Positions 2,006 to 36,855 of a stretch of 64,000 bases of DNA are shown piece after piece. A program made the translations under genes and the position numbers. This stretch comes from Xanthobacter dioxanivorans (lineage in GTDB: Bacteria; Pseudomonadota; Alphaproteobacteria; Rhizobiales; Xanthobacteraceae): positions 3,514,501 through 3,578,500 of the forward strand of contig NZ_CP063362.1 in the NCBI RefSeq assembly GCF_016807805.1, in the 5' to 3' direction. Position 1 is the stretch's first letter, and each line of letters begins with the position of its first letter. A model generated the notes under the pieces. That model saw nothing but the letters and a program-made list of their open reading frames with translations. It was not told the DNA's origin and did not search any database.

Positions 2006-3703
2006 ATGCACCAGAGAACTGCCCGCCCGCTCGATCCCGCGTCCGACGCGGCCATCGCAGCCAGCGTCACCCCCCTGCCGATCGGGGAGGTGGCGGCGAA
2101 GCTCGCCATTCCGGCGGAGGCGCTCTACCGCTACGGCCCCCACAAGGGAAAGCTCTCCCTCGATTTCATCGCCGACCTCGAAGACCGCCCGCGCGGGCGG
2201 CTCGTGCTTGTCACCGCCATCAATCCGACGCCGGCGGGCGAGGGCAAGACCACCACCACCATCGGCCTCGGCGATGCCCTGTCCCGCGCCGGCATGAAGG
2301 CCGCGGTGTGCCTGCGCGAACCCTCGCTCGGCCCGGTCTTCGGCGCCAAGGGCGGGGCGACGGGCGGCGGCCGGGCCCAGATCATCCCCATGCAGGACAT
2401 CAACCTGCACTTCACCGGCGACATCCACGCCATCACCGCCGCGCACAACCTTTTGTCGGCGCTGATCGACAACCACATCCACTGGGGCAACGCCCTCGAC
2501 CTCGATGCCCGGCGCATCGCGTGGCGGCGGGTGATGGACCTCAACGACCGCGCGCTGCGGCAGGTCACCATCGGTCTCGGCGGCCCGGCCAACGGCTTTC
2601 CCCGCGAGGACGGCTTCGACATCACGGTGGCGAGCGAGGTGATGGCCATCCTCTGCCTCGCCGACGGGCTGGAGGACCTGGAGGCACGCCTCTCCCGCAT
2701 GGTCATCGGCCAGACGCGCGGCAGGCGCATGGTGCGGGCGGCGGAGCTGGAGGGCATCGGCGCCATGGTGGCGCTGCTGCGCGACGCCTTCCAGCCGAAC
2801 CTGGTCCAGACCATGGAGGGCACGCCCGCCTTCGTCCACGGCGGCCCGTTCGCCAACATCGCCCACGGGTGCAATTCGGTGATGGCGACCAGGAGCGCCC
2901 TCGCGCTCGCGGACGTGGTGGTGACCGAGGCAGGCTTCGGCGCCGACCTTGGTGCGGAGAAGTTCCTCGACATCAAGTGCCGGCAGGCGGGGCTCGCGCC
3001 CTCGGCCGCCGTGGTGGTGGCGACGGTGCGGGCGCTCAAGATGCACGGCGGCGTGCCGCTCAAGGGGCTTGGCGCGCCGGATGTGGCGGCGGTGACGCGT
3101 GGCTGCGAGAACCTGAAGCGCCACGTGGAGAACCTCACCAAATTCGGCCTGCCGGTGGCGGTGGCGCTCAACCATTTCACCGGCGACACGCCGGAAGAAG
3201 TGGCCGCCGTGGCCGAAGCGTTGGCCGGCCTCGGCGTCGGCGTGCATGTCTGCCGGCACTGGGCCAACGGCAGCAGCGGGGCCGAGGATCTGGCCCGGGC
3301 GGTGATGGAGCTGGTGGAGCGACCTTCCACCTTCCGCTTCCTCTACCCCGAGGACATGCCGCTGGCGCAGAAGATCGAGACCGTGGCCCGCCAGATCTAC
3401 CGGGCGGAGCGGGTGGACTTCTCTTCCGCCGCGACGGCCCGCCTGAAGGAGTTCGAGGCCGCCGGCTTCGGGGCGCTCCCGGTGTGCATGGCGAAGACGC
3501 AATATTCCTTCACCGCCGATCCGGCCGCCCGCAATGCCCCGACGGGGCATGTGCTGCCGGTGCGCGAGGTGCGGCTGTCGGCGGGGGCGGGGTTCGTGGT
3601 GGCGCTCGCCGGCGACATCATGACCATGCCCGGCCTGCCCTCGGTGCCGGCCGCCCGCGACATCTTCGTGATGCCGGACGGGTTCATCGCCGGCCTGTCA
3701 TAA
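2006..3703 (+). CDS. fhs: Formate–tetrahydrofolate ligase
   Basis: ATP-dependent joining of formate to tetrahydrofolate, giving 10-formyl-THF for C1 metabolism in the cytosol. The 565 residues match the usual ~557. The P-loop-like stretch [14 protein letters not shown] (about residue 70) and the following [10 protein letters not shown] and [11 protein letters not shown] segments are family hallmarks; [10 protein letters not shown] lies near the C-terminus. The frame runs 126 bp further upstream, but that part reads as arginine/proline-rich noise, so the ATG at 2006 (GGGGA about 9 nt upstream) is preferred. In this window it could re-assimilate formate released by the frc/oxalate system at 31–36 kb; that link is inference. 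Confidence 0.95.
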
Positions 3704-30042: not shown

Positions 30043-30132
30043 GGGATGAGGAGGCTGCCCTTGTGCGGACCCATGCCGCATGGGTCCCTTCTCCCCCGGA
30101 GGGGCGCCCCCCTCTTTAATCCGAAAACACCG

Positions 30133-30205
30133 AAAGGTCAGTCCGGAAAGGTCAGTCCGGAAAGGTCCGTCCGGACAAGGTCAGTCCAGGCAAGGTCAGT
30201 CGAGG
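30133..30205. repeat. 14-bp tandem repeat running into the GntR gene end
   Basis: About five units of AAAGGTCAGTCCGG: two exact, one with a single change, then two degenerate longer ones (ACAAGGTCAGTCCAGG, CAAGGTCAGTCGAGG). The last unit covers the stop and last codons of the GntR regulator, so repeat expansion may have set that protein's C-terminus. Confidence 0.85.
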
Positions 30206-30973: not shown

Positions 30974-30984
30974 GTATTGAATAC
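30974..30984. promoter_or_regulatory. Inverted repeat GTATTGAATAC before the GntR gene
   Basis: Perfect GTATT-G-AATAC, 89 bp upstream of the regulator start. It has the same GTAT and ATAC half-sites as the other boxes but a 3-nt spacer. Candidate autoregulatory site. Confidence 0.5.
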
Positions 30985-31093
30985 ATCATATCAGATCGCC
31001 GAATAGGCGTTAGGGCAGGTAATGACGCATGGATAGCTGCGCCCTGTCGTTGCGATGCAGCAAAATCCCCCCTCCCTCCTCCCGCACTGCGCG

Positions 31094-31116
31094 TTGACAG
31101 AATGTATTCTGAATAC
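31094..31116 (+). promoter_or_regulatory. Promoter -35 and GTAT-N5-ATAC operator of the CBS gene
   Basis: A consensus -35 TTGACA (31094–31099) is followed by GTATTCTGAATAC (31104–31116), 73 bp before the start codon. The box fills the space between -35 and the expected -10, a position suited to repression. Confidence 0.6.
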
Positions 31117-31188
31117 CAGCATCAGTGTCCAAGGGCCGCATTGAACGGTCCGCATACGAGGCGGCAGGCGCCGCCAGGGGAGGACATC

Positions 31189-31659
31189 ATGATCACCGTC
31201 GACGATATCCTGCGCGAGAAGCGCCATACCCGCGTTGTCACCCTGCGCATGCAGGAGACCGTGGCCGACGCCGTCCGGGTGATGAAGCGGGAGAACATCT
31301 CCTCCGTCATCGTCACCGACATCTGCGGCACCGAGGGGAGCACCGTGATGGGCGTGTTCTCCGAGCGCGACGTGACGCGCGCGCTTCTGGAGCACGGAAG
31401 CAACACCCCGCGCATGCTGCTTGCGAGCCTGCTCAAGCGGGAGGTCATCTCCTGCCGCCTCGACGACGGCATCGCCACCGTCCTGCGTCTCATGGACGAG
31501 CACCAGGTGCGGCATCTGCCGGTGATGGAAGAATACACGCTCATCGGCGTCATCAGCGCCACTGACCTCATGCGCCACTACCTGCGGGAAGCGGAGATGA
31601 AGACCCTTCTCGATCCCGCGCTGGGCGGCATGGACGCCCACCTCACGCCGCTGCGCTGA
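31189..31659 (+). CDS. Two-CBS-domain protein
   Basis: 156 residues that form a CBS pair: first from TVADAVRVMKRENISSVIV to GVFSERDVTRALLE, second from CRLDDGIATVLRLMDEHQVRHLPV to GVISATDLMRHYL. Such stand-alone pairs bind adenosyl nucleotides (AMP/ATP/SAM) or NAD(H) and regulate a partner; none is identified. AGGGGAGG sits 5–8 nt before ATG 31189; the frame upstream is open but crosses the operator. Co-located and probably co-regulated with frc. Confidence 0.88.
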   Translation: MITVDDILREKRHTRVVTLRMQETVADAVRVMKRENISSVIVTDICGTEGSTVMGVFSERDVTRALLEHGSNTPRMLLASLLKREVISCRLDDGIATVLRLMDEHQVRHLPVMEEYTLIGVISATDLMRHYLREAEMKTLLDPALGGMDAHLTPLR

Positions 31660-31729
31660 GCCCGGCGGGGGGAGCTGACCCATCGTCGCTGAAGAAGATT
31701 GCGGCGGGGAAATGATGATGTTAGTCTTG

Positions 31730-31742
31730 GTATCTGGCATAC
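31730..31742 (+). promoter_or_regulatory. GTAT-N5-ATAC box before frc
   Basis: GTATCTGGCATAC, 105 bp before the frc start and 70 bp after the CBS gene. It indicates a separate promoter for frc. Confidence 0.55.
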
Positions 31743-31846
31743 GTAATGTCGTACACAGTGCCACGGGCGATGATCCTCAGGGTCAGTCCAAGCCGGCGCA
31801 GACCGGCACCCAGCAAGACAAGGGCTAGGAAATCCGGGAGTGGTGC

Positions 31847-33076
31847 ATGGGCAACGCGCTCGACGGCGTACGCGTCCTGGACATGACGCACGTGCAGTCC
31901 GGCCCGTCGGCGACGCAGCTTCTTGCGTGGCTGGGGGCGGATGTCGTCAAGGTTGAGATGCCGCGGCGGGGGGACATCACCCGCTCGCAGCTGCGGGACA
32001 AGTCCAATGTGGACAGTCTCTATTTCACCATGCTGAACGCCAACAAGCGCAGCGTGACGCTGAACATCAAGACGCCGCAGGGCCAGGAGGCGCTGGGGCG
32101 CCTCATCGACGCCTGCGACGTGATGGTGGAGAATTTCGGCCCCGGCGTGCTCGAGCGCCAGGGCTTCGGCTACGAGGCGGTGCGCGCCCGTAACCCGCGC
32201 CTGATCTATGCCTCCATCCGCGGCTTCGCGGAGGCCTCCGGCATTGATGCCAAGGCCTATGAGACCATCGCCCAAGCCATGGGTGGCGCCATGAGCACCA
32301 CCGGATGGCGGTCCGGCCCGCCGACCGCCTCCAGCGCCCAGATCGGCGACACCGGCACCGGCATCCACTGCGTCGCCGGCATCCTCGCCGCCCTCTATCA
32401 GCGCACGGTGACGGGCGAGGGCCAGCGGGTGGACGTGGCCATGCAGGATTGCGTCATGAACCTGCTGCGCGTGAAGCTGCGCGACCAGCAGCGTCTCGAC
32501 GCGGGTCCGCTCACCGAATATCCCGGCGCTCCCGAGGGCGATTGCGTTCCCCGCGCCGGCAATGCGTCCGGCGGCGGCCAGCCGGGAGCGGCGCTGCGCT
32601 GCGCGCCGGGGGGCGAGAATGACTTCTGCTACGTCATCATCCAGCCCCAGGGCTGGGCGCCGCTGATGCGTTTGGTGGGCCGCAAGGACCTCATCGACGA
32701 TCCCAAGTTCGCCGCCCACGAGGCCCGCGCCCAGCGCCTCGACCAGTGCTTCGAGATCATCGAGCGCTGGACGGTGAAGCGCACCAAGTTCGAGGTCATG
32801 GCCGCGCTCAAGGCCATCGACGTGCCCTGCGGCCCGGTGCTTTCCACCCGGGACATCCTGGACGACCGGGCGCTCTACGAGCGCGGCTTCCTGGTGGAGG
32901 TGCCGCACCCCGAGCGGGGCAGCTACGTGACGCTCGGCTCGCCGATACAGCTTTCGGCGAGCCATGTTCCGGTGGACCGTGCTCCCCTGCTGGGCGAGCA
33001 CACGCAGGCGGTGCTCGCCGACCTCGGTTTCACTGAAGAAGAGATCGCCGGCATGCGTGCCGCCGGTGCCGTCTGA
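31847..33076 (+). CDS. frc: Formyl-CoA:oxalate CoA-transferase (class III)
   Basis: 409 residues. Moves CoA from formyl-CoA to oxalate, giving oxalyl-CoA and formate. The N-terminus (LDGVRVLDMTHVQSGP) and middle (SNVDSLYFTMLNANKRSV, VENFGPG) track the Oxalobacter formigenes enzyme closely. The catalytic Asp is Asp168 (AQIGDTGTG, D169 there), and the active-site glycine loop GGGQPG is at 242–247. RVKLRDQQRL and the C-terminal RAPLLGEHT are also conserved. GGGAG lies 6 nt before ATG 31847. No oxalyl-CoA decarboxylase (oxc) is beside it, which is unusual. An OxlT-like antiporter follows. Confidence 0.92.
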   Translation: MGNALDGVRVLDMTHVQSGPSATQLLAWLGADVVKVEMPRRGDITRSQLRDKSNVDSLYFTMLNANKRSVTLNIKTPQGQEALGRLIDACDVMVENFGPGVLERQGFGYEAVRARNPRLIYASIRGFAEASGIDAKAYETIAQAMGGAMSTTGWRSGPPTASSAQIGDTGTGIHCVAGILAALYQRTVTGEGQRVDVAMQDCVMNLLRVKLRDQQRLDAGPLTEYPGAPEGDCVPRAGNASGGGQPGAALRCAPGGENDFCYVIIQPQGWAPLMRLVGRKDLIDDPKFAAHEARAQRLDQCFEIIERWTVKRTKFEVMAALKAIDVPCGPVLSTRDILDDRALYERGFLVEVPHPERGSYVTLGSPIQLSASHVPVDRAPLLGEHTQAVLADLGFTEEEIAGMRAAGAV

Positions 33077-33109
33077 CGGGAGCAAAAATCACCCGTCCGA
33101 GCAATCCGC

Positions 33110-33139
33110 CGCCTCATGAGGGAAAAGAGGATGAGGCGG
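33110..33139 (+). terminator. Intercistronic hairpin between frc and the first antiporter
   Basis: Perfect 9-bp stem CCGCCTCAT / ATGAGGCGG with a 12-nt purine-rich loop, 33 bp after frc. No T-run. It may stabilise the frc mRNA or attenuate read-through. Confidence 0.45.
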
Positions 33140-33181
33140 TTACCAACACCAAAATAAGAAATTGTGCCAAGGGGTAGGAAG

Positions 33182-34477
33182 ATGGTTGAAGCTGCAGTTA
33201 AGGCACCAGCGACGAATCGCTGGATGCAATTGATCGCCGGCGTGGTCTGCATGGTTGCCGCCGCGAACATTCAGTATTCCTGGACGTTGTTCGTGCCCGA
33301 GATCGTCAGCACCCACGGGTGGACGCGCGCCTCGGTGCAGGTGGCCTTCACCGTGTTCGTGGTGGTGCAGACCTGGCTCACCCCCATCGAAGGCTATTTC
33401 ATCGACAAGTATGGGCCGCGGGTGATGGTGATGGTGGGCGGCCTGTTCACCGGCCTCTCCTGGGTGCTGAACTCTTACGCGACCTCGCTCACCGCGCTCT
33501 ACGTGGCCGCCGCCGTCGGCGGCATCGGCGTCGGCTGTGTCTATGCCACCTGCGTGAACGCCGCGCTGAAGTGGTTTCCCGACCGGCGCGGCCTCGCCGT
33601 GGGGCTCACCGCCGCCGGCTATGGTTCGGGCACGGTGCTCACCATCCTGCCCATCGCCGCCATGATCAAGTCGAGCGGCTACCAGGAGACCTTCTTCACC
33701 TTCGGCCTGGTGCAGGGCGCGGTCATCCTGCTCGCCGCCGGCTTCCTGCGGGCGCCGTCGAAGACCGAGGTCGTCTATTCCTCCACCGTGGCCCAGAGCC
33801 GGCGCGACTACACCCTGGGCGAGGCGCTCCAGACCCCGGTGTTCTGGATCATGCTCACCCTGTTCGTCCTCACCGTGTCCGGCGGCCTCATGGCGGTGGC
33901 GCAGCTGGGCGTGATCGCCGAAGACCTCGGCGTGAAGCATATCGAGGTGAACCTCTATTTCTTCGCAATGGCCGCTCTGCCGTTCGCGCTGATGCTGGAC
34001 CGCATCCTGAACGGCTTCTCTCGGCCCTTCTTCGGCTGGATCTCGGACCATATCGGCCGTGAGAAGACCATGTTCTTCGCCTTCGCCATGGAAGGCATCG
34101 GCATCGTCGCGCTGGGGACGTTCGGCCACAATCCATGGGCCTTCATCATCCTCTCGGGCGTGGTCTTCCTGGCCTGGGGCGAAGTCTATTCCCTGTTCTC
34201 GGCCACGGCCGCGGATACGTTCGGCTCCAAGCATATCGGCAAGATCTACGGCATGCTCTACACGGCCAAGGGCTTCGCCGCCTTGCTGGTGCCGCTCGCC
34301 AACATCCTGATGGAGGCGACGGGAAGCTGGACCACGGTGCTCTACACCGTGGCGGCCATGGACCTGACGGCCGCTTTCGGCGCCCTGTTCGTGCTCCGGC
34401 CCATGCTGGCGCGCCACCATCGCCTCAACGCGGAGGCTGCGGCGCGGGCCGCGGCGACGCGCGAGGTCACGGCCTGA
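33182..34477 (+). CDS. OxlT-like oxalate/formate antiporter, copy 1 (MFS, OFA family)
   Basis: 431 residues, twelve membrane spans. The OFA motifs are clear: IQYSWTLFVPEI, PIEGYFIDKYGPR, LKWFPDRRGLAVGLTAAGYG, PVFWIML. The two charged residues that bind oxalate in OxlT (R272, K355) are matched by Arg281 (FSRPFFG) and Lys363 (YTAKGFA). It should exchange oxalate (in) for formate (out), making frc productive; other dicarboxylates are possible. The start ATG 33182 has AGGGGTAGGAAG in front. Same strand as frc, probably co-transcribed, ending in a strong terminator. Confidence 0.88.
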   Translation: MVEAAVKAPATNRWMQLIAGVVCMVAAANIQYSWTLFVPEIVSTHGWTRASVQVAFTVFVVVQTWLTPIEGYFIDKYGPRVMVMVGGLFTGLSWVLNSYATSLTALYVAAAVGGIGVGCVYATCVNAALKWFPDRRGLAVGLTAAGYGSGTVLTILPIAAMIKSSGYQETFFTFGLVQGAVILLAAGFLRAPSKTEVVYSSTVAQSRRDYTLGEALQTPVFWIMLTLFVLTVSGGLMAVAQLGVIAEDLGVKHIEVNLYFFAMAALPFALMLDRILNGFSRPFFGWISDHIGREKTMFFAFAMEGIGIVALGTFGHNPWAFIILSGVVFLAWGEVYSLFSATAADTFGSKHIGKIYGMLYTAKGFAALLVPLANILMEATGSWTTVLYTVAAMDLTAAFGALFVLRPMLARHHRLNAEAAARAAATREVTA

Positions 34478-34600
34478 GCCTTGTCCCATCATGGTCGCAT
34501 CATGCCGCCACGTGCCGCATGGCGGGTTTACCCGACGCCGGGGGTCCGTGATCACGTGAGCGGATAAAAAGTCCCTCCACCGTCCTTGTGGCGGTTCCTC

Positions 34601-34629
34601 AAGCCCCGGCCTGCGCCGGGGCTTTTTTT
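34601..34629 (+). terminator. Intrinsic terminator after the first antiporter gene
   Basis: AAGCCCCGGC-CTGC-GCCGGGGCTT then a run of T, a textbook rho-independent terminator 123 bp after the stop. Confidence 0.9.
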
Positions 34630-34906
34630 GTCCGCGCCGTGCCTGGCGAAGGACCGAAGCCCGTACACGCATACGCCCATCCGCCCCATGCGCACCGCGG
34701 TCACGACGGTATCGGCAGCCCGCATGATGCATTGCCGCAATTGTAAGAGCGTATGGCAAAGTGTTGGGCAGATATTCGCGCAGGCGTGGCGCAGAAGGAA
34801 TCAAGAAAAAGGCCACTGAAGGCCGGGGGTATTCGCCTTCAGGCTGTCGCAGTCGCCCCTGAAAGCCTGTAATACAGCGGATGTAGCGGTTAGGTAGCTG
34901 TTACAT

Positions 34907-34919
34907 GCATTATGTATAC
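34907..34919 (+). promoter_or_regulatory. GCAT-N5-ATAC box before the second antiporter
   Basis: GCATTATGTATAC; its complement GTATACATAATGC differs by one base from the box at 36809–36821. 140 bp before the start codon at 35059. Confidence 0.55.
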
Positions 34920-35058
34920 GATATTTTCGATACACCTTTCTCCGTGGTACGCGAGCGGGTCGGCCGAACATCAACGGCGCAAAGAAGCCCGCAACAGAAT
35001 GGCGACCGTCACGGGCCGTTCATCGCTCTCGATGATCCCCAGTGAGAAAGGGAAGGAA

Positions 35059-36393
35059 ATGCCTCAGAACACCTCCGCGCCCACGCGCGGTCCCGCCGCA
35101 GGCCCCGTCGCGGGTCCCCTGGGCGGGCGCTGGCTGCAACTCGCCATTGGCGTCGTGTGCATGTCCATGATCGCCAACCTGCAATACGGCTGGACGCTGT
35201 TCGTCGAGCCGATGAACGAGAAGCACCAGTGGGGCCGCGCCGCCATCCAGGTGGCCTTCACCATCTTCGTCGTGTTCGAGACTTGGCTGGTGCCGGTCGA
35301 GGGCTGGTTCGTGGACAAGTTCGGCCCGCGCATCGTGGTCTTCGTCGGCGCCATTCTCTGCGGTCTGTCCTGGGTGCTGAACTCGATGGCGGACAGCCTC
35401 ACCATGCTCTACATCTCGGCCGCCCTCGGCGGTACTGGTGCGGGCGCCGTCTACGGGACCTGCGTCGGCTCGGCGCTGAAATGGTTCCCGGATCGCCGCG
35501 GCCTTGCCGCCGGCATCACCGCCGCCGGCTTCGGCGCCGGATCGGCCCTGACGATCGTGCCCATCGCGGCCATGATCAAGTCGCAGGGCTACGAGCACAC
35601 CTTTCTCTTCTTCGGCCTGATCCAGGGCGCGGTCGTTCTCGTGCTCTCGTTCTTCCTGGCGGCTCCGAAGGAAGGCCAGCTTCCGGTGGTAGCCGTCCCC
35701 ACGGTCAACCAGAGCCGGCGCAATTACGGCCCAGGCGAGATGCTGAAGGCCCCGGTGTTCTGGGTCATGTATCTGATGTTCGTGCTGGTGGCGGCTGGCG
35801 GCCTCATGGCGACGGCCCAGCTCGGCTCCATCGCCAAGGACTTCAAGATCGCCGACGTGCCGGTGTCGCTGCTCGGCCTCACCATGCCGGCGCTGACCTT
35901 CGCCCTGTCCATCGACCGGGTGCTGAACGGCCTGACCCGTCCTTTCTTCGGCTGGGTGTCGGACAATATCGGGCGTGAGAACACCATGTTCATCGCCTTC
36001 GGCCTGGAGGCTGTCGGCGTGCTGGCGCTCGCCCACTTCGGCTCCAACCCGGTGCTGTTCGTGCTGCTGACGGGGCTCGTCTTCTTCGCCTGGGGCGAGA
36101 TCTACTCGCTCTTCCCGGCGACCTGCGGCGACACGTTCGGCTCGCGCTACGCCACCACCAATGCCGGTCTCCTCTACACCGCGAAGGGCACCGCATCGCT
36201 GGTGGTCCCCATGGCATCGGTCGCCGTGGCGAGCCTGGGCAACTGGGACCTGGTGTTCATGATCACCGCCGCGGTCAACGCCGTCGCGGCGCTCATGGCC
36301 CTCCTGGTGCTCAAGCCGCTCCGCGCCCGCTTCGTGGCCGGCGCCACCGCCGCCGAGGTGGTGAAGGCGAGCGGCGCCAAGGTCGCCGGCTGA
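35059..36393 (+). CDS. OxlT-like oxalate/formate antiporter, copy 2 (MFS, OFA family)
   Basis: 444 residues, twelve spans, clearly paralogous to copy 1 (LQYGWTLFVEPM, LKWFPDRRGLAAGITAAGFG, PVFWVMY). The substrate-binding pair is kept as Arg294 (LTRPFFG) and Lys376 (YTAKGTA). The N-terminus is longer, with a Gly/Pro/Ala-rich tail. AAGGGAAGGA precedes ATG 35059; in-frame starts at 34912 and 34999 would read through the box and lack ribosome sites. It has its own control box and terminator, so it can be regulated apart from copy 1. Substrate is oxalate/formate or a related acid. Confidence 0.88.
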   Translation: MPQNTSAPTRGPAAGPVAGPLGGRWLQLAIGVVCMSMIANLQYGWTLFVEPMNEKHQWGRAAIQVAFTIFVVFETWLVPVEGWFVDKFGPRIVVFVGAILCGLSWVLNSMADSLTMLYISAALGGTGAGAVYGTCVGSALKWFPDRRGLAAGITAAGFGAGSALTIVPIAAMIKSQGYEHTFLFFGLIQGAVVLVLSFFLAAPKEGQLPVVAVPTVNQSRRNYGPGEMLKAPVFWVMYLMFVLVAAGGLMATAQLGSIAKDFKIADVPVSLLGLTMPALTFALSIDRVLNGLTRPFFGWVSDNIGRENTMFIAFGLEAVGVLALAHFGSNPVLFVLLTGLVFFAWGEIYSLFPATCGDTFGSRYATTNAGLLYTAKGTASLVVPMASVAVASLGNWDLVFMITAAVNAVAALMALLVLKPLRARFVAGATAAEVVKASGAKVAG

Positions 36394-36454
36394 GCGCGCG
36401 GGCCGAACCGGCCCGCCGAAAACGCCTTTGGCCCACCTACCCCGGGCCCACCTG

Positions 36455-36492
36455 GAGGGGGCGGCTTGCCGCTCCCTCTTTTTCCTTTTTTC
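36455..36492 (+). terminator. Intrinsic terminator after the second antiporter gene
   Basis: GAGGGGGCGG-CTTG-CCGCTCCCTC (one G·T pair) followed by TTTTTCCTTTTTT. Confidence 0.9.
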
Positions 36493-36495
36493 CGA

Positions 36496-36717
36496 TCAGT
36501 TCCCGCGGGGCACCGCCATGGCGGGCGCGACCGCGTCGTTCGCCGCGTGGCGCACCTGGGCGAAGCGCGGTTCGGGGGCCTGCAGAAGGACGTCCTCCAC
36601 CGGAATGCCCATGCCGCCTGCGGCGGTCATGTAGGGCTTGTCCGCGGAGATGCCGGTGACCGCCAGCGAAAGCACGATCCCGAAAAGGCCAAGGGCCGTA
36701 AGTTCCAGTGCGTTCAT
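36496..36717 (-). CDS. Small exported or membrane-anchored protein in the frc regulon
   Basis: 73 residues, family not recognised. N-terminal hydrophobic stretch (LELTALGLFGIVLSLAVTGIS) followed by ADKPYMTAAGG, so either a cleaved signal peptide (near ISA-DK) or an anchor. The rest is short and hydrophilic, ending ...AMAVPRGN. GGGAGAAAGAAT directly precedes ATG 36717, supporting real translation. It is convergent to the second antiporter, with their ends only ~100 bp apart, and carries a GTAT-N5-ATAC box 92 bp upstream. It could be an accessory peptide of an antiporter or a periplasmic sensor; both are guesses. Confidence 0.7.
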   Translation of the reverse strand: MNALELTALGLFGIVLSLAVTGISADKPYMTAAGGMGIPVEDVLLQAPEPRFAQVRHAANDAVAPAMAVPRGN

Positions 36718-36808
36718 ATTCTTTCTCCCGGCACCTCAAGTGCCGAAGCCAGGCGCCACCACGCGCCCTTGAGCTGAGAGCGTTCTAGCCCATCCGGGCC
36801 ATGCCGTG

Positions 36809-36821
36809 GTATACATAATAC
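36809..36821 (-). promoter_or_regulatory. GTAT-N5-ATAC box before the small exported protein
   Basis: GTATACATAATAC, 92 bp upstream of the small minus-strand gene at 36496–36717. Close match to the box before the second antiporter. Confidence 0.55.
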
Positions 36822-36838: not shown

Positions 36839-36855
36839 ATGCTGCATAGCAGCAT
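36839..36855 (-). terminator. Hairpin downstream of pgi
   Basis: Perfect 7-bp stem ATGCTGC / GCAGCAT with a 3-nt loop, 57 bp after the pgi stop. No T-run; possible 3'-end structure of the zwf–pgl–pgi mRNA. Confidence 0.4.

Follow-up and report, generated by a model that had tools for sequence, protein, structure and literature searches.

The stretch of DNA analyzed here, referred to as the window, covers 64 kb of the 6.65-Mb Xanthobacter dioxanivorans genome (G000:C1:3514501-3578500) and carries a cluster of oxalate genes along which a short palindrome, GTAT-N5-ATAC, hereafter called the box, is repeated (Table 1). The cluster starts with gntR1, encoding the FCD-type GntR regulator GntR1, and continues on the opposite strand with cbs, frc, and two genes for oxalate/formate antiporters of the major facilitator superfamily (MFS), oxlT1 and oxlT2, the former probably in one transcript with frc. 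Next comes a gene for a small predicted membrane or exported protein, whose 73-residue sequence gave no match in a family search, with pgi as the next gene beyond it. A preliminary description of this DNA, made from the sequence alone, had listed exact boxes at positions 31104, 31730, and 36809 and a box with one mismatch at 34907, all of which were found in place. The bases lying between box and gene number 72 for cbs (ATG at 31189), 104 for frc (31847), 139 for oxlT2 (ATG at 35059), and 91 for the small gene (ATG at 36717, minus strand), in line with the range of 73 to 140 bp given there. Absent from that list was a second one-mismatch box before oxlT2, at 34921, and all three exact boxes found in the oxlT2 gap of relatives sit in this second position.

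Conservation was followed through the intergenic gaps of up to 20 orthologous Xanthobacteraceae loci, and because these genomes are related, the counts are not independent. The preliminary description had proposed phylogenetic footprinting as a check, and the boxes were indeed kept at orthologous promoters. The box was exact in all 20 gntR1-cbs gaps; exact in 16 of the 19 cbs-frc gaps and within one mismatch in 18; exact in 3 of the 17 oxlT1-oxlT2 gaps and within one mismatch in 14; and, in the oxlT2-pgi gap containing the small gene, exact in 13 of 18 and within one mismatch in 18/18. The frc-oxlT1 gap, serving as a within-operon control, contained a box with at most one mismatch in 0/19 loci. 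When the distance between the half-sites was scanned over all gaps, spacing 5 gave 55 exact matches and the other spacings between 0 and 15 gave 0 to 4 each, while permuted half-sites at spacing 5 gave a mean of 0.8 matches and a maximum of 5. Column identity in the alignments was 0.89 to 1.00 in the half-sites, 0.60 to 0.91 in the box centers, and 0.54 to 0.65 outside the boxes. Base counts were drawn from sites preselected at no more than one mismatch, so that those of the half-sites are uninformative and the flanking and central positions alone carry information. The pattern is that of a conserved putative operator shared by orthologous oxalate-gene promoters, weak at tctC and at gntR2/oxc in the second locus described below.

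The position of the boxes relative to likely promoter elements was equally constant. As the preliminary description had it, the cbs box lies between TTGACA and the -10 element, and the arrangement TTGACA-N4-box recurs in 20/20 gaps, the box ending exactly where the likely -10 hexamer CAGCAT begins. At frc, the elements TTGC-N16-TG-N-TA are present at constant spacing in 19/19 gaps and are followed by box 2, over the predicted start point. On the gntR1 side of the gap, the 11-mer GTATTGAATAC that had been proposed as a box preceding the GntR gene is present at 30974-30984; it was rejected as a conserved box, being found in 1 of 20 orthologous gaps, that of this genome, and the overlapping degenerate box at 30979-30991 is the one that is kept.

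Table 1. Genes, promoter elements, and boxes of the oxalate cluster, with positions in the window.
Feature	Position	Strand	Evidence
gntR1, FCD-type GntR regulator GntR1, 229 aa	30196..30885	-	PF07729 93.6 bits, PF00392 49.2 bits, both above cut-off
Degenerate box GAATACATCATAT, two mismatches, gntR1 promoter side	30979..30991		ATACA-N2-ATA kept in 19/20 orthologous gaps
-35 TTGACA of cbs	31094..31099	+	TTGACA-N4-box in 20/20
Box 1, GTATTCTGAATAC	31104..31116		Exact in 20/20 orthologous gaps; fills the 3' 13 bp of the 17-bp spacer between the -35 and -10 elements of cbs
Likely -10 CAGCAT of cbs	31117..31122	+	CAGCAT 16/20, CACGAT 3, CAGAAT 1; putative assignment
cbs, two-CBS-domain protein, 156 aa	31189..31659	+	PF00571 71.7 bits, two stretches
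Likely frc promoter: TTGCGG 31699-31704, 17-bp spacer, extended -10 TGT-TAGTCT 31719-31727	31699..31727	+	Putative assignment
Box 2, GTATCTGGCATAC	31730..31742		Exact 16/19, at most one mismatch 18/19; directly 3' of the frc -10
frc, formyl-CoA transferase	31847..33076	+	TIGR03253 573.8 bits (cut-off 504.2)
oxlT1, oxalate/formate MFS antiporter	33182..34477	+	TIGR04259 657.1 bits (cut-off 335)
Box 3a, GCATTATGTATAC, one mismatch, before oxlT2	34907..34919		Box with at most one mismatch in this gap in 14/17
Box 3b, ATATTTTCGATAC, one mismatch, 14 bp from box 3a	34921..34933		Exact GTATTTTTGATAC here in three relatives (L043-L045)
oxlT2, second oxalate/formate MFS antiporter	35059..36393	+	TIGR04259 663.2 bits (cut-off 335)
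Small predicted membrane/exported protein, 73 aa	36496..36717	-	tblastn relative in 11/17 other orthologous gaps, 40-81% identity
Box 4, GTATACATAATAC, 91 bp before the small gene	36809..36821		Exact 13/18, at most one mismatch 18/18

Three further repeats were noticed in the cluster. In several genomes, half-sites at oxlT2 recur every 7 or 14 bp (34900-34940 in the window; L050:6680-6715; L046:5710-5735), which suggests that two or more dimers may be arrayed there. An inverted repeat, TGCTGCATAGCAGCA, lies at 36840-36854, about 19 bp away from box 4; 13 of the 18 orthologous gaps have it exactly and 14 have CTGC-N3-GCAG, and we take it to resemble a PhaR-type site. An imperfect tandem repeat with a unit of about 14 bp (GGTCAGTCCGG-like), detected by eye, extends from about 30130 to 30205, directly 3' of gntR1.

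In 100 dinucleotide shuffles of the window, matches with at most one mismatch averaged 1.56 against the 5 observed, a number reached in 2 of the 100. The exact palindrome occurs 11 times in the genome, including three sites within 5.7 kb in this cluster (Poisson P ~1.4e-7, which is post hoc, as the pattern was taken from this same cluster). Six of the remaining eight exact sites lie inside open reading frames (ORFs), two of them with a coding-type GC content at third codon positions (0.85 to 0.88), and no oxalate gene was recognized alongside any of the eight, their neighbors being read as ORFs only. The one-mismatch pattern alone is useless for a genome-wide search, and its individual sites beyond about 2.29 Mb of C1 are known through stricter patterns only. 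With the extended 15-base consensus TGGYATACAWAATAC at two mismatches or fewer, 6 of the 8 matches in this genome fell in two oxalate loci. Matches to this consensus numbered 1, 1, 1, and 0 in four members of the genus lacking gntR1 versus 4 to 10 in each of ten members carrying it. Boxes equally frequent at unrelated promoters, which the preliminary description had named as evidence against its reading, are thus not what these counts describe. Beside the two off-locus matches to TGGYATACAWAATAC, ORF reading, made with no family searches, recognized no oxalate-related neighbor, and the same holds for TGGCATCCAGAATAC, which recurs in four genus members and was followed in two of its four contexts.

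The second of these loci, unlinked to the window, contains oxc (G000:C1:668133-669794). Its 20-kb neighborhood (L004) carries on one strand fah-sucD-sucC-frcB-frcA-oxc-gntR2-tctA-tctB-tctC, followed by an IclR gene and then by a PanE/ApbA-type gene; sucC, sucD, tctA, and tctB are named from position and sequence reading, with no family call. It thus holds, next to oxc, two further frc genes and a paralogous FCD-type regulator, GntR2. Counting both loci, the oxalate genes assigned by family are TIGR04259 twice, TIGR03253 three times, and TIGR03254, all above cut-off and representing uptake, formyl-CoA transferase, and oxalyl-CoA decarboxylase. The PanE-type gene has a one-mismatch box, TGGCATACATAATAC, whose start lies some 40 bp ahead of it, and the corresponding iclR-panE2 gap has an exact box in 3 of 18 relatives and one within a single mismatch in 17. 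Two one-mismatch boxes precede tctC, the first gene of the same-strand run that holds oxc, and in 14 of 19 relatives the tctC gap has a site no more than two mismatches from TGGYATACAWAATAC. The preliminary description had expected boxes upstream of oxc and fhs. For oxc, this stands in part, with degenerate boxes at the head of its run and a one-mismatch box at the nearby PanE-type gene, but oxc itself is unlinked and has no strong box beside it. For fhs (formate-tetrahydrofolate ligase, PF01268), which lies in the window at about 2042-3700, some 28 kb from the box cluster, the expectation failed: its best upstream match has three mismatches, and it was discarded as a regulon member.

The PanE-type gene encodes a protein with both ApbA families (PF02558 and PF08546), named 2-dehydropantoate 2-reductase by NCBIfam. 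From its family and its neighborhood, as in Cupriavidus necator, we infer an oxalyl-CoA reductase-like enzyme, a label taken from PanE2/ApbA2, which is reported as a candidate or enzyme for the CoA-acylating glyoxylate dehydrogenase step in C. necator and Methylobacterium extorquens (PMC7486775). The product of the IclR gene that separates tctC from the PanE-type gene (L004:13679-14760; G000:C1 ~674.7-675.8 kb) is a regulator close to BhcR, scoring 284.8 bits and so short of the cut-off of 350. The gap before the PanE-type gene also shows TTTTCC-N5..9-GGAA in 18/18 relatives, and a fuller palindrome, TGGAATTAATTTCCA, in 1 of 18, this genome only. At the PanE-type promoter, the oxalate box may act together with a sensor of the glyoxylate type.

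In a wider sample of 66 further GntR loci, 62 had a relative of oxc, frc, or the PanE-type gene with an identity of 50% or more; these 66 were what remained of 80 initial loci after 14 had been left out as duplicates of the G-genome loci. Dropping 8 judged Xanthobacteraceae-like, 17 of 18 from Pandoraea, and 2 Inquilinus and 1 Cupriavidus duplicates left 38 non-Xanthobacteraceae loci with 106 upstream regions of 250 bp each. Spacing 5 gave 20 exact matches in this set, compared with a mean of 0.18 and a maximum of 1 for permuted half-sites, and a box with at most one mismatch was present in 52 of the 106 regions against a mean of 3.3 and a maximum of 9 in shuffles that preserve base composition only. 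The box preceded PanE-type genes in 11/12 regions, gntR1-type genes in 25/32, and oxlT2 in 4/7. In three Inquilinus limosus records (L095-L097), a GntR1 orthologue directly faces the PanE gene across an exact box, GTATACAAAATAC, and in a C. necator record (L156), one-mismatch boxes precede the panE-type, gntR, frc, and oxc genes.

The CBS-domain gene also recurs at alphaproteobacterial regulator loci (L095-L098, L101, L104, and L119). In L095-L098 and L101, it adjoins the PanE-type gene and lacks its own box; in L119 it has an exact one, and in L104 one with a single mismatch. Judging from this distribution, the CBS protein looks like a core, uncharacterized part of the oxalate module. Locus L098 (NZ_VCCH02000052.1) is titled Mycobacterium sp. 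KBS0706, an organism name that seems doubtful; its GntR and PanE proteins are 73% and 72% identical to the queries, and it shows the cbs-PanE-box arrangement of Inquilinus limosus, but with gntR about 7.6 kb off.

Orthologues of GntR1 with 88 to 94% identity were found in 17 other genomes among 149 searched, and the named relatives with 93 to 94% identity belong to Xanthobacter strains. GntR1 and GntR2 are 61% identical, and their winged helix-turn-helix domains (wHTH; PF00392, 49.2 and 46.5 bits, respectively, cut-off 27) are nearly identical to each other and to those of alpha- and betaproteobacterial relatives. Residues E44, R45, S54-R55-T56-P57, R59, E60, and P75-R76-R77-G78 of this domain are invariant in 26 sequences. 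The all-helical FCD domain (PF07729) scored 93.6 bits in GntR1 and 88.5 in GntR2 (cut-off 24.3), and the predicted GntR1 model has a helical C-terminal part and a mean predicted local distance difference test score (pLDDT) of 87.9. A Foldseek search with this model returned GntR proteins as top matches, with PmiR, a Brucella GntR entry, and Atu1419 as the best and TM0439 included. N142, H146, H190, and H212, which are invariant in the same 26 sequences, may correspond to the metal-site positions (Asp/Asn plus three His) of FCD domains, and the effector could plausibly be a dicarboxylate bound to the metal, oxalate for instance.

Alongside the observed sequence of the box, its conservation, its spacing specificity, and its linkage to oxalate genes, we propose, with a probability of roughly 0.82, that FCD-type GntR proteins read GTAT-N5-ATAC (extended form tGGTATaCannATACg) as the operator of an oxalate regulon. 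GntR1 would be one reader, and its paralogue GntR2 at the unlinked oxc locus very probably another. The single regulon foreseen in the preliminary description is supported, with the amendment that its one regulator becomes two paralogues that could both read the box. The cbs box fills part of the -35/-10 spacer and the frc box covers the predicted start point, positions that suggest a repressor. When oxalate is absent, a GntR dimer would occupy the box at these positions and would exclude RNA polymerase from the cbs, frc-oxlT1, oxlT2, small-gene, and PanE-type promoters, with weaker repression of the tctCBA-gntR2-oxc-frc-frc run. Binding of oxalate or of a CoA derivative in the FCD pocket would release the dimer, and release would jointly induce uptake, CoA activation, and decarboxylation or reduction. 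It is very likely that this regulon is real and larger than the preliminary description saw.

Several observations weigh against this proposal. Besides the relatedness of the Xanthobacteraceae genomes, oxc has no strong adjoining box in X. dioxanivorans; the gntR2 gap has a one-mismatch site in 2 of 18 relatives and sites with two mismatches otherwise; and the tctC-iclR gap has an exact box in 0/19 and one within a single mismatch in 7/19. In the 38-locus set, the box was often or always absent from the 250 bp before gntR2-type genes (present in 0/6), oxc (8/23), frcA (3/19), frc (1/5), and frcB (0/2); position inside operons would mostly explain the low oxc and frc scores. Across the genome, there are fewer one-mismatch sites (232) than matches to the reversed control (363), and, for lack of enrichment, it is therefore the relatives that decide. 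The reversed control of the extended pattern also gave 0 to 4 matches per genome. Lastly, the proposed repressor sign is drawn from box position.

The box could instead be read by one paralogue only, for example with GntR1 controlling uptake and GntR2 controlling oxc and PanE through a slightly different word. There is one regulator per locus, the box subtypes differ (TGGCATACATAATAC at the PanE gene and GTATTCTGAATAC at cbs), and the gntR2-type genes outside Xanthobacteraceae have the box in none of six upstream regions. The near identity of the wHTH helices of GntR1 and GntR2, however, and the Inquilinus limosus records, where a GntR1 orthologue stands opposite the PanE gene across an exact box, make such a division of labor unlikely. 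We also regard as distinctly unlikely that the functional site is a short core of the FadR/VanR kind (GT-N2-AC, GTATAC) with an extra half-site 7 bp off, the 13-bp palindrome being a by-product. VanR-type Atu1419 does bind ATGTATACAT (PMC7797058), additional half-sites 7 to 12 nt off are known in the family (PMC4494728), and GTATAC occurs within all 19 sites of the small-gene gap and 16 of the 27 of the oxlT2 gap, for which reason this core-plus-half-site arrangement keeps some standing. GTATAC is nonetheless missing from 20 of 24 gntR1-cbs sites, 14 of 23 cbs-frc sites, and 15 of 18 PanE-gap sites, as well as from Cupriavidus boxes such as GTATGTGATATAT, whereas the 5-base spacing holds in both locus sets. 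The GTATAC-like operator of the preliminary description thus fits part of the boxes, but not most sites at cbs, frc, and PanE, nor the distance of 9 nt between GT and AC.

An operator for another regulator, with gntR linked to it by coincidence, is very improbable. An IclR-type gene is indeed present at the PanE locus, but a reference search found no IclR relative beside the window cluster, genus members without gntR1 also lack the box set, and the box accompanies gntR across alpha- and betaproteobacteria, preceding gntR1-type genes in the 25 of 32 upstream regions given above. Chance resemblance of AT-rich promoter words to palindromes, which the 232 genome-wide sites within one mismatch might evoke even though the reversed control is higher, has practically no weight against the conservation, the spacing specificity, and the permuted-half-site controls.

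Returning to GTAT-N5-ATAC as the proposed operator of an oxalate regulon, the broader proposition, to which we give even odds, is that these proteins belong to a widespread, unnamed branch of oxalate-sensing FCD-GntR repressors, from Xanthobacteraceae to Pandoraea and Cupriavidus, whose wide 13-bp operator breaks the FadR-subfamily spacing; in Xanthobacter, the two paralogues would couple the unlinked loci through it, with the oxalate GntR and the BhcR-like IclR regulator jointly setting the PanE-type branch point. Oxalate, an acid abundant in plants and fungi, is eaten by bacteria that feed the oxalate-carbonate carbon sink. As a compact marker, the operator would point to oxalate regulons in many alpha- and betaproteobacteria. 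It would also connect oxalate use with a small exported protein and with a CBS-domain protein that is uncharacterized, and would provide a case of FCD half-site spacing departing from the consensus.

No GntR regulator of the oxc/frc route was recognized among the matches listed in the open-access literature, subscription literature lying outside this search, so that its absence is unproven. In C. necator, an frc-oxc operon has a nearby ApbA/PanE2 homologue, like the second locus described here (PMC7486775); GntR occurs 0 times in the main text of that article, whose consulted passages describe no regulator of the glyoxylate/oxalate route. The closest regulators by sequence and fold include the VanR-subgroup FCD repressors Atu1419 (PDB 6z74 and 6za3) and PmiR (7xp0 and 7xp1). 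The Atu1419 operator overlaps the -10 element or lies between -10 and -35, like the boxes of the window, but Atu1419 governs hydroxycinnamic acid degradation, and its site is a 10-mer with GT-N2-AC (PMC7797058), whereas GT and AC are 9 nt apart here. PmiR likewise differs from the oxalate system in its ligands and targets. Escherichia coli NanR, another FCD-GntR protein, has a half-site, TGGTATAW, resembling the TGGTAT half-site found here, but it reads the direct repeats (GGTATA)3 (PMC4494728, PMC8012715) rather than inverted halves with a fixed 5-base gap, and it matched GntR1 weakly in a PDB sequence search (22.4 bits). Operators of the FadR subfamily are A/T-rich palindromes with a conserved GT...AC, as are the boxes, and their GT-AC spacing is mostly 3 nt, several groups having 2 nt and NanR being one of the exceptions (PMC4494728, in whose main text the word oxalate occurs 0 times). 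The subfamily consensus TKGT-N2/3-ACMA is not matched here, since the spacing scan peaks only at GTAT-N5-ATAC. The oxalate system is of a known kind, a probable local FCD-GntR catabolic switch, and what is unusual about it is the spacing of its operator and the proposed sharing of that operator by two paralogues and by two loci that are not linked.

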